DNA from: Gammaproteobacteria bacterium
GTDB taxonomy: Bacteria > Pseudomonadota > Gammaproteobacteria > Steroidobacterales > Woeseiaceae
DNA length: 64,000 bases
NCBI GenBank assembly: GCA_024639825.1
Contig: JAHEGH010000163.1
Location: forward strand, 24,719 to 88,718
Direction of reading: 5' to 3'
Both the position numbers and the translations under genes were made by a program. Shown in pieces: positions 57,996 through 62,547 of this stretch; position 1 is the first letter of the stretch, and each line of letters opens with the position of its first letter. Under the pieces are notes generated by a model. It made no database searches. It had not been told where the DNA came from and saw nothing but the letters and a program-made list of their open reading frames with translations.

Positions 57996-58295
57996 TCAGG
58001 ATTGCGTGACCCGGATCCGGCAAGCGGTTGGACTGAGTCCAGCATCCCGGGCGGTTGCGAGCAGGACGTCAGTTTCATAGCGCAGCCGGCTGGCCCAGGC
58101 GGAGGAAGCAGCAATAATGATCAAGTCCCCGTCTTCGCGGAGGTTTGCGGCGACAATGGCACCCGCGTACTCGCCCGGCAGTCCTTTGCTCAGAACGTGC
58201 GTCAGTTCGCCCATCTCCCTGGCGCGGCGAACGATATCAGCTAACTCCCCGCCATTACTGGGATTTAAAAGGTTTTTCAGCTTGTCTGAGGCCAT
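57996..58295 (-). CDS. dciA: DciA/DUF721 family protein
   Basis: LSKGLPGEYAGAIVAANLREDGDLIIIAASSAWASRLRYETDVLLATARDAG; location beside secA fits DciA synteny. Confidence 0.75.
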   Translation of the reverse strand: MASDKLKNLLNPSNGGELADIVRRAREMGELTHVLSKGLPGEYAGAIVAANLREDGDLIIIAASSAWASRLRYETDVLLATARDAGLSPTACRIRVTQS

Positions 58296-58364: not shown

Positions 58365-58393
58365 TTGTAATGATTTCCGACATTATGCATATT
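58365..58393 (+). promoter_or_regulatory. Putative sigma70-type promoter for the riboswitch transcript
   Basis: TTGTAA-N17-CATATT (58365-58370/58388-58393) predicts a start near 58400. Confidence 0.45.
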
Positions 58394-58399
58394 GTCGCA

Positions 58400-58486
58400 T
58401 ATGACAAAGGCAAACCCGCTGTGAAGCGGGGACGCAAAACCACCGGCCCTGGGTAAAAAAGCAGGGCAGCGGGGCTACCAAAGTGA
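58400..58486 (+). ncRNA. Cyclic-di-GMP-I (GEMM-I) riboswitch
   Basis: AAAGGCAAACC-CGCT-GUGA-AGCG-GGGACGCAAAACCACCGGCCCUGGG-UAAAAAA-GCAGGGCAGCGGGGCUACC matches the GEMM-I core (GGCAAACC, GGGACGCAAAnCC, CCGGCC, AGCGGGGnUACC). Confidence 0.95.
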
Positions 58487-58601
58487 GCAGGGACTGCAAG
58501 TTTAGAACAACGCGAAGAAGCGGACACGGTGATATTCACGGTGGTCCCGCGGCTTGCATGAATAACCAGGTAACGACACAAACGCACCCGGGGCGTACTC
58601 G

Positions 58602-59534
58602 ATGAATGTTGTAATTTTCGGCAAGGGGTTCGGCAAACCTCGTCAGCTAAGCCTGTCTGGCCCGATTGCCGGGTTCGCTGCAGGGGCTGTTGCACTGGTC
58701 GTTATGGTTGCCGGCTTTGCTGGCGGCTACGCCTATTCCTCGAGCACAGGCTCGGGCGTCAGCACAGCCGAACTCAGCGAGTTGACGGGAGCGCTCGACG
58801 TTCAGCGCGAAAATATCGCTGATATCCGCCAGGGCAATGAAGACACACTTGATGCGCTGGCTATTCGCATCGCCCAGATGAACGCGCGCATGATCCGCCT
58901 CGATGCCGTTGGCCGCCGCCTGACGGAAATGGCCGATATTGATGCAGACGAATTTAATTTCGATTCGGACCCGGCACTGGGTGGTCCTGAAGAGCCGATG
59001 GCCGCGGGCTCAAACGTTGCCGTTCCTGAAGTTCTCGATGCCATGACCACGCTCAATTATCAGTTGGCCAACCGTGAGGCCCAGCTCAACGTGCTCGAAT
59101 CGGTACTGATGAACCAGAATCTGAGTGAACGCGTGTACCCGCAGGGTCGCCCGGTCAAATCCGGCTGGCTGTCATCCTACTTTGGTAAGCGTACGGATCC
59201 GTTCACCGGCAAGCCCGCCAACCATACAGGCATCGACTTTGCCGGCAAGCATGGCGATGAAATCGTCGCGGTTGCCGACGGTGTTGTCACCTGGTCAGGC
59301 GATCGCTACGGTTACGGTGTGATGGTCGAGATCACCCATGGCAACGGCTATGCGACACGCTACGCACATAATTCAGAAAATCTCGTCGTCGTCGGCGACG
59401 AAGTAAAGAAAGGGCAGGTCGTTGCCCTGATGGGCAAGACAGGCCGTGCTACGGGCCCGAACCTGCACTTCGAAGTTCTGCGCAATGGCAGCCGGGTGAA
59501 TCCGGTGAGCTTCATTCGCAATTCGTCGAATTAA
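58602..59534 (+). CDS. M23 family metallopeptidase (LytM/EnvC-type)
   Basis: GWLSSYFGKRTDPFTGKPANHTGIDFAGKHGDEIVAVADGVVTWSG...GPNLHFEVLRNGSRVNPVSFI; N-terminal TM and coiled coil. Confidence 0.94.
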   Translation: MNVVIFGKGFGKPRQLSLSGPIAGFAAGAVALVVMVAGFAGGYAYSSSTGSGVSTAELSELTGALDVQRENIADIRQGNEDTLDALAIRIAQMNARMIRLDAVGRRLTEMADIDADEFNFDSDPALGGPEEPMAAGSNVAVPEVLDAMTTLNYQLANREAQLNVLESVLMNQNLSERVYPQGRPVKSGWLSSYFGKRTDPFTGKPANHTGIDFAGKHGDEIVAVADGVVTWSGDRYGYGVMVEITHGNGYATRYAHNSENLVVVGDEVKKGQVVALMGKTGRATGPNLHFEVLRNGSRVNPVSFIRNSSN

Positions 59535-59635
59535 GCGCCACGAACCCCTGATCCAGAGACTGCCGTCGGCCGTTGCCGAGGGTCCTTGAGTTTCAAAATT
59601 GTGGCCATAAATCACCACATTCGATTCTAAATAGC

Positions 59636-59668
59636 GCCGCTACACCTTAGAATAGCGGCCTTTGTTTG
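59636..59668 (+). terminator. Hairpin with T-rich tail between the M23 gene and secA
   Basis: GCCGCTA...TAGCGGC (59636-59642/59653-59659) then CTTTGTTT. Confidence 0.4.
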
Positions 59669-59682
59669 ACCGGGAGCCCTGT

Positions 59683-62547
59683 GTGGCCAATTTCCTGACT
59701 CGCATTTTCGGCAGCCGCAACCAGCGACTGCTGCGTCAGTACTCAAAAGCCGTTAAGAAGATCAATTCTCTTGAGGAAGCGCTGCAGGCGCTCTCCGACA
59801 GTGATCTTAAGGCCAAGACTGAAGAATTCCGCAAGCGCTATACCGAGGGCGAGACGCTCGAAGAGCTGCTGCCGGAGGCTTTTGCGGTCGCTCGAGAGGC
59901 GGCGGTTCGAACCCTGCATCTGCGCCCATTCGACGTCCAGCTCATCGGTGGCATGGTCCTTCACGAAGGCAACATTGCCGAAATGCGCACGGGTGAAGGC
60001 AAGACGCTGATGTCGACGTTGCCAGCCTACCTTAATGCGCTCAGCTCGGATGGCGTGCACATCGTAACCGTCAACGAATACCTGGCGCAGCGCGACGCTG
60101 ACTGGATGCGCCCGATCTACGAGTTCATGGGCCTGACCGTCGGTGTATCAAAGACCGGCCAGTCGACCGAAGAGAAACGTGCGGCTTACGCGGCGGACAT
60201 TACGTACGCAACCAACAATGAACTGGGTTTCGACTACCTGCGCGACAATCTCGCATTCGCGATCGAAGACAAGACTCAACGGAAGCTGAATTTTGCAATC
60301 GTCGATGAGGTCGACTCGATTCTGATCGACGAGGCGCGGACGCCGCTTATCATCTCCGGCCCGGCCGAATCCAGCACGGATCTGTATGCGCAGATCAACA
60401 AGCTGATTCCGAAGCTCAAGGCGCAGGAAGAGACCGAAGAGCCGACCAACTACGAAATTCCGGGCAATCGCGTGATCCTCATCGACCGCAACGACCAGTT
60501 GTGTTCGCTGGACGAGGCGGTTTCCCTGGCCGAAGAAAACGAGGCCGACCTGGTCCTGGTCGATGGCAGTGAGAAACCTGTGAAATGCAGGCTTCTGCCA
60601 CGCGGCGACTACACGCTGGACCTGAAGGCGAAGCAGGCGCATGTCACAGAGGAAGGCCACCAGAAGGTCGAGGCGCTGATGGCGCAGGCCGGACTCCTGA
60701 AGGAAGGTGAGAGCCTTTACGACGCCGGTAACATCCGCCTGTTGCATCACCTCAACGCTGCTCTGCGTGCACATTCGATTTATCAGCGCGATGTCGAATA
60801 CATAATCAAGGATGGTGAAGTCGTAATTGTTGACGAGTTCACCGGCCGTACTATGCCCGGCCGCCGCTGGGGCGATGGCCTGCACCAGGCAGTGGAGGCA
60901 AAAGAAGGCGTATCGATCCGCCAGGAAAATCAGACCGTCGCGTCGATCACTTTCCAGAACTACTTTCGCCTTTACAACAACCTGTCAGGCATGACGGGTA
61001 CCGCCGATACCGAGGCTTTCGAATTCCAGTCAATTTACGGGCTCGAGGTCGTAGTGATTCCAACGCACAAGCCGATGATTCGCGACGACCAGCCTGATCT
61101 TGTTTATCTCACCGAGAAGGACAAGTACGAGGCGATCGTCGAAGACATCGTCGATTGCAGCGAACGCGGCCAGCCTGTGCTGGTCGGTACTACTTCGATT
61201 GAGGCATCGGAGCTGCTGTCGAAATTCCTTAGCAAGCAGAAGATCAAGCATGAGGTGCTGAACGCCAAGCAGCATGAGCGTGAAGCCCTGATCGTGCAGA
61301 ACGCGGGCCGACCCGGTGCGATCACCATCGCCACCAATATGGCCGGTCGCGGTACCGATATCGTGCTGGGTGGCAGTTTCGAGGCTGACCTGGCCAACGC
61401 CGGCGAAGGGGCTGACGAGGTCGAGGTCAAAGACAAGTGGCAGAAGCGCCATAACCAGGTACTCGAGGCCGGTGGCCTGCACATCGTGGGTACCGAGCGT
61501 CATGAATCGCGGCGTATCGATAACCAGCTCAGGGGTCGTTCGGGCCGCCAGGGGGACCCGGGTTCATCCAGGTTCTACCTGTCCATGGAAGATACGCTTA
61601 TGCGCATCTTCGGCGATCCAGAGCGGACCAAGAGCCTGCTGTCGCGCGCTGGTATGCGTGAAGGTGAGGCGATCGAAAGCAAACTTCTGACGCGCCAGAT
61701 CGAGCGCGCGCAGCGCAAGGTTGAAGCGCACAACTTTGACATTCGTAAGAATCTCCTCGAGTACGATGATGTCGCGAACGACCAACGCAAGGTTGTCTAC
61801 GTCATGCGTAACGACCTCATGGAGGCGGCGGAGATCGAAGACTCGATTAAGGCGATTCGTGACGAAGTCGTTGAGGGCGCAGTGCATCAGCACATCCCGC
61901 CCGGCAGTCTTGAAGAAATGTGGGACGCGGAAGGCCTGAGCAATGCGCTGGAGGCGGAGTTTGGTGTCCGCGCGGATGTGGCACGCTGGATTCGTGAAGA
62001 CAGCACGCTCACGGCTGAGAGCATCAGTGAGCGCTGTATCGGGGAAGTTACCAAGGCCTATGAGAAAAAGGCTGGCGATATTGGCGCTGAGCTGATGCGC
62101 GGTGTCGAGAAGCAGATCATGCTGCGGCAACTCGACTTCCACTGGAAAGAGCACCTGGCTGCGATGGATCATCTGCGCCAGGGTATCGGATTGCGATCCT
62201 ACGCACAGAAGAACCCGAAACAGGAATACAAGCGAGAAGCTTTCGAGATGTTCGGCGAGATGATTGAACAGGTGAAACACGATTCGATCAGCATACTGTC
62301 GCGCATACGTATCCAGGGCGAGGAAGATCTGTCCGAGCTCGAGCAGCGCCGCAAGAAAGAGCAAGCCATGAAATTCCAGCATGCGGAAGCCTCGGCGCTG
62401 GGTGGCGGCCAGTCGGGCGGCGAACAGCCGGCGCCTGCAGAGGCTGCCGCGCCGTTCGTGCGCGATGGTCGTAAGGTTGGTCGCAACGAACCGTGTCCCT
62501 GTGGATCGGGTAAGAAGTTCAAGCAGTGTCATGGCAAGCTGAGCTGA
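59683..62547 (+). CDS. secA: Protein translocase subunit SecA
   Basis: GTG 59683: [40 protein letters not shown]-terminal [18 protein letters not shown] zinc motif. Confidence 0.98.

Follow-up and report, generated by a model that had tools for sequence, protein, structure and literature searches.

A c-di-GMP-I riboswitch and a coupled short leader reading frame upstream of an M23 peptidase gene in Woeseiaceae: a putative translational relay

Introduction

In Escherichia coli, a short reading frame, secM, lies close upstream of secA. Short frames that act on the next gene have also been described together with riboswitches. In Mycobacterium tuberculosis, the B12 riboswitch of ppe2 acts with the uORF uPPE2, for which termination-reinitiation was shown by reporter mutants (Kipkorir et al. 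2024, PMC11260477), and reviews consider that the sole purpose of some short ORFs may be to supply the following gene with a ribosome (PMC12548453). As for riboswitches of the c-di-GMP-I class, the other platforms named in the part of the literature cited here use terminators, e.g. Bc1 (PMC11218506).

The window analysed here is a 64,000-nt stretch of a contig from a gammaproteobacterium of the family Woeseiaceae. An original prediction, made from its letters, had placed in it a c-di-GMP-I (GEMM-I) riboswitch with its own promoter that would directly control an M23 peptidase gene and, by read-through, possibly secA, at the locus where E. coli has secM. Of this interpretation, the c-di-GMP-I aptamer, its promoter and their place upstream of M23 were supported; direct control of M23, the expression platform, control of secA and the SecM analogy were not. 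What is new is a putative relay ORF between the aptamer and M23, which had been overlooked in the earlier reading. The features of the locus are given in Table 1. The genomes compared are mostly metagenome assemblies with predicted start codons, and all the evidence is comparative.

Table 1. Features of the riboswitch-M23-secA locus (window positions)
Feature	Coordinates	Strand	Evidence
dciA, divergent neighbour	57996..58295	-	PF05258, E 3.5e-09
Promoter-like element: -35 TTGTAA (58365-58370), 17-nt spacer, -10 CATATT (58388-58393)	58365..58393	+	congener conservation
c-di-GMP-I (GEMM-I) riboswitch aptamer	58400..58483	+	cmscan/cmsearch 70.6-70.7 bits, P2/P3 covariation, Vc2 alignment
AGCGGGG, P3 3' strand doubling as putative leader Shine-Dalgarno	58468..58474	+	position/spacing, P3 pairs
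Leader (relay) ORF, 40 codons, GTG start, VSRDCKFRTTRRSGHGDIHGGPAACMNNQVTTQTHPGRTR followed by the stop	58483..58605	+	openness and coupling across loci
Hairpin within leader ORF: TGCAAG (58495-58500)/CTTGCA (58553-58558) and inner stem	58495..58558	+	20 congeners
SD-like GGGG of M23, 8 nt 5' of its ATG	58590..58593	+	sequence
M23 peptidase, 310 aa	58602..59534	+	PF01551, E 1.1e-32
Promoter-like block of secA, TTAGAATAGCGGCC, between M23 and secA	59647..59660	+	congener conservation
secA, likely GTG start at 59683	59683..62547	+	Pfam SecA domains (PF07517 and others), conserved N-terminal start

Aptamer and promoter

The aptamer was found at the predicted place and on the predicted strand. Indeed, the Rfam scan gave a single match in the whole window, with RF03167 at 70.6 bits (gathering threshold 59, E 1e-14; cmscan), and the cmsearch with RF01051 that had been proposed as a check gave a significant match at 58399-58482 (70.7 bits, gathering threshold 35). 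A second proposed check, covariation among relatives, was positive for the aptamer: in 49 aligned aptamers, two-sided changes occur in 10 of the 20 pairs of P2 and P3, and the covariation score of 0.263, far above shuffled and slid controls, was reached by none of 500 shuffles. The P3 pairs are nearly invariant in this alignment.

By E-value, the top Rfam family is RF03167, the c-di-GMP-I-GGC variant. This label was rejected on the grounds that the window reads CGCAAA against a consensus of CGCGAA, i.e. A and not G at the ligand-stacking position, which was taken from the RF03167 model consensus as the base after CGC (position 47). The base at position 20 distinguishes c-di-GMP from cGAMP aptamers, and A20 lets GEMM-I accept cGAMP; the cGAMP type (GEMM-Ib) was rejected for the window aptamer, which has G20 and not A20. 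Because of its canonical A at the variant position and its canonical G20, the aptamer was filed as an ordinary c-di-GMP-I aptamer. In the alignment with Vc2, the bases corresponding to G20, A47 and C92 (Vc2 numbering), which we take to be the ligand-contact bases of c-di-GMP-I riboswitches, are all of the canonical type. On this comparative footing it is a real c-di-GMP-I aptamer, of which c-di-GMP is the presumed ligand. The genome of the window encodes 17 GGDEF domains, so that a c-di-GMP signal should be available to sense, and carries nine aptamers of the c-di-GMP-I type.

The promoter predicted upstream (TTGTAA-N17-CATATT) is likewise present and, in the form TTGTA[AT]-N17-CATA[TG]T, is found without exception in the 37 congeners (the genome of the window included), each time with a spacer of 17 nt; judging from the position of this element, transcription should thus begin at the 5' edge of the aptamer, at about 58400. 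Within the spacer and -10 region (58381-58393) lies an unusually conserved GACATTATGCATA block, including the palindrome ATGCAT, which goes beyond the needs of a plain promoter.

A coupled leader reading frame between aptamer and M23

The M23 gene had been described as the first gene downstream of the aptamer. It does follow (58602-59534, PF01551), but the first ORF is a 40-codon leader (58483-58605), and since this coupled frame stands between the two, M23 was no longer considered to be the directly controlled gene. The GTG of the leader lies at the 3' edge of the aptamer, 3 nt beyond its core; its putative Shine-Dalgarno sequence is the GGGG located 8 nt 5' of the GTG (anti-SD duplex of about -5.6 kcal/mol), and its TGA (58603-58605) overlaps the ATG of M23 (ATGA).

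A coupled leader ORF of 31 to 41 codons is present in 37/37 congeners, in which the coupled frame contains three stops in total and the two remaining frames contain 63 and 111. In neutral simulations run on the M23 gene tree from an open ancestor, none of 1500 kept at least 36 frames open at any of three rates, a reduced rate included. Close pairs give a pS of 0.26 and a pN of 0.22. A frame kept open while its amino acids drift almost neutrally indicates that translation is selected and not its product; on this pattern, selection acts on translation as far as the M23 start codon and not on the leader peptide itself.

It is very unlikely, then, that the product of the ORF is a functional small protein or a SecM-like nascent arrest peptide regulating M23 or secA. 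The locus does correspond to that of secM, and in part of the genus the C-termini share a short THPGR-like motif, but pS is about equal to pN, no motif is shared across the order, the peptides of different families cannot be aligned, and the leader is in some cases fused to M23. The proposed SecM analogy was abandoned, as no conserved arrest-peptide sequence was found.

Beyond the genus, the same leader geometry occurs in other families of the order despite quite different sequences. Across 103 riboswitch-M23 loci of the order (37 congeners, 11 earlier non-genus loci and 55 later ones), a coupled leader ORF, with a stop overlapping or abutting the M23 start, is found at 87, above shuffles, and an edge ORF is absent at seven. 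In brief, the 11 earlier non-genus loci include nine coupled leaders, one fused and one locus without ORF, and the 55 later ones include (i) 41 coupled leaders, versus 4.2 expected from dinucleotide shuffles, (ii) one leader fused from an edge start, (iii) six frames whose only open stretch begins at a TTG within the aptamer, (iv) one leader stopping 18 nt early and (v) six loci without edge ORF. Of these 41 couplings, 26 are 4-nt overlaps, four are 1-nt overlaps and ten are 10-nt overlaps, and one leader ends 6 nt before the M23 start. At L064, L251 and L140, the leader frame is fused straight into M23 from the aptamer edge, as expected if the aptamer-edge start is the true entry point. For M23 loci that lack the riboswitch, the median open stretch in the corresponding frame is 9 codons, versus 47 where the riboswitch is present.

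The ATGA overlap was rejected as evidence on its own. Indeed, 35 of 42 riboswitch-less M23 genes have a stop-overlapping start codon, and the motif alone is uninformative because many M23 proteins begin with Met-Asn; the evidence for coupling rests on the openness of the frame and on its start at the aptamer edge.

Structure of the leader RNA

The TGCAAG/CTTGCA stem that had been proposed as part of the expression platform does have its arms where predicted, but the hairpin that they close sits inside the leader ORF, and its role as platform was not retained. This hairpin has 14 pairs, four of them with two-sided changes in 20 congeners, its outer arms are nearly invariant, and it is retained in about half of the genus. 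The second proposed element, a GGGAC/GTCCC pairing between aptamer and downstream RNA, has no counterpart at the corresponding position in L018 and L019, the nearest relatives. The conserved hairpin between aptamer and M23, with its two-sided changes, is what would speak for a classical platform, in which M23 is governed directly by changes of pairing between the aptamer and stems further downstream, the presence of the ORF being incidental. Such a platform is highly improbable, given the lack of conservation of GGGAC/GTCCC, a mean folding z of only -0.5 and a reading frame that persists where the hairpin sequence has changed.

Two further structures were considered. A stable leader structure acting as platform was rejected, its folding energy being on average not below that of shuffles. 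An extended P1 that would enclose the leader start codon is not claimed: its inner two pairs are kept in 97% and its outer pairs in 43-84%, without any one register being favoured.

The terminator scan found no plus-strand intrinsic terminator between the aptamer and M23, its matches being on the minus strand only. This is compatible with the main rival explanation, namely that the riboswitch would block translation of the leader and leave naked RNA exposed to Rho, with shortening of the M23 mRNA and no re-initiation; with a reading frame open directly downstream of the aptamer, the RNA would be shielded from Rho. Such protection, however, does not require the stop to lie next to the M23 start, as it does, to within a few bases and with three different overlaps, at 87 of the 103 loci, and we hold this explanation to be unlikely.

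Proposed relay by re-initiation

The observations from which the proposed mechanism starts are the aptamer, the conservation of its promoter, the conserved reading frame, its start/stop geometry and the near-neutral drift of its peptide. With good, though not full, confidence, we propose that the ribosome-binding site of the leader is occluded by the aptamer under c-di-GMP and that M23 is reached by termination-reinitiation; the ligand, the sign of control and the re-initiation step are what we infer. The transcript would begin at the 5' edge of the aptamer, and the 3' strand of P3 (GGGG or GGAG) would serve as Shine-Dalgarno sequence for the leader start (GTG, 58483). Bound c-di-GMP would stabilise the aptamer fold and thereby block this site, making the element an OFF switch. 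At low c-di-GMP, ribosomes would translate the 40 codons of the leader, stop at the TGA that overlaps the M23 AUG and re-initiate on M23, which amounts to a translational relay. The sign of control is uncertain, because P3, which holds the Shine-Dalgarno sequence, may form without ligand. Independent initiation on M23 is also possible, because a separate SD-like GGGG/GAGG precedes this gene (mean duplex energy of about -5.2 kcal/mol over congeners).

A wider reading, that the order shares one platform, appears reasonably likely. It would combine a ribosome-binding site embedded in the aptamer with a sequence-free relay ORF; the riboswitch would control ribosome entry only, M23 would be reached by re-initiation, and the arrangement would be kept in reduced genomes as their last c-di-GMP riboswitch.

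Distribution of the riboswitch

Judging from named relatives of its M23 gene, the window belongs in Woeseiaceae or beside it, and its own genus is well sampled. The aptamer precedes M23 in 37 of the 37 congeners examined, at 11 of 20 loci in other families and then at 55 of 80 further loci of the order. Across Gammaproteobacteria, it was found at only 8/80 named M23 loci, all of them from Woeseiaceae or unclassified gammaproteobacterial MAGs, one of which is labelled Rhodospirillales; the aptamer model gave no match at the other 72 of these 80, including those of Marinobacter, Cellvibrionaceae, Aeromonas and Xanthomonas. Two congeners with reduced Woeseiaceae genomes of 1.5 Mb (G004 with locus L046 and G011 with locus L071) each have one GGDEF protein and one c-di-GMP-I riboswitch, which is the one at M23; the L046 aptamer has changes at normally invariant bases. 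Of the 60 genomes first searched, the four that lack GGDEF also lack any c-di-GMP-I riboswitch.

At five loci of family f9 (L047, L048, L199, L200 and L202), the aptamer at M23 carries A20 (AGCAAAC), which was seen only in relatives of this family; the other readable aptamers in the same genomes keep G20. A ligand switch at this one locus is possible. No Hypr GGDEF with the GHxxGS signature was found in these genomes among the GGDEFs readable by pattern, which missed several.

Other aptamers of the genus precede other genes. In the genome of the window and in two congeners (L004:1501-3015, L168 and L176), a compact aptamer is separated by 3 nt from the ATG of a gene for an unrelated protein of 473-478 aa, which is conserved and has no Pfam match. 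This distance is exactly that between the aptamer and the leader ORF at the M23 locus, and the GGAG of the aptamer is a likely Shine-Dalgarno sequence; the gene would be a second c-di-GMP gene, controlled by direct occlusion. At L015:847-2319 and L164, the genes behind c-di-GMP-I aptamers encode a pullulanase-like protein with X25 domains and an FAD lactone oxidase.

The M23 protein and secA

The M23 protein has one N-terminal membrane-anchor-like stretch, and the proteins of known structure closest to it are ShyA-type M23 DD-endopeptidases. In the alignment, the residues HxxxD (H208, D212) and H289 of the zinc-binding motif HxxxD ... HxH are present and the usual HxH reads NLH, with N for its first H; several relatives in the family carry HLH or HVH at this place.

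As predicted, secA follows M23, with SecA domains (PF07517 and others) identified downstream. The terminator scan gave no plus-strand terminator after M23, so read-through into secA would be possible. However, a TAGAATA block lies at most 260 nt after M23 and 30-40 nt before the secA start in 29/37 congeners, similar -10-like blocks occur upstream of secA in other families, and the block looks like secA's own promoter. The suggested control of secA by c-di-GMP through read-through is unsupported for this reason. Furthermore, the region upstream of secA in the window (59535-59682) contains a strongly conserved block (CTTGTGATCGCC ... TTAGAATAGCGGCCTTTG) common to much of the genus.

Discussion

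To our knowledge, evolutionary proof for reading frames that serve only ribosome delivery is scarce. An order-wide conservation of the frame with a drifting peptide, beside a sensor of a class whose ligand is known, makes this idea directly testable. Such platforms are missed by annotation pipelines, which list neither riboswitches nor 40-codon ORFs. c-di-GMP is a second messenger of surface life and Woeseiaceae are abundant marine-sediment bacteria; the locus described here would place this messenger over a cell-wall peptidase in Woeseiaceae.

Compared with known systems, the window aptamer shares its core, its helices and its ligand-contact bases with the Vibrio Vc2-type riboswitches of RF01051, from which it differs by its putative expression platform, a coupled relay ORF. 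As in the secM-secA locus of E. coli, a short frame lies near secA, but here the frame precedes M23 and encodes no conserved peptide. The closest precedent is ppe2 of M. tuberculosis, where a short uORF under riboswitch control ends in a stop that overlaps the following start (AUGA), with re-initiation downstream (PMC11260477). The ligand and the aptamer class differ, the ppe2 riboswitch responding to B12. Moreover, the uORF site of ppe2 is masked by a separate stem, whereas the leader site in Woeseiaceae seems to lie within the aptamer itself, and the arrangement of the Woeseiaceae type has been retained in many families of one order.
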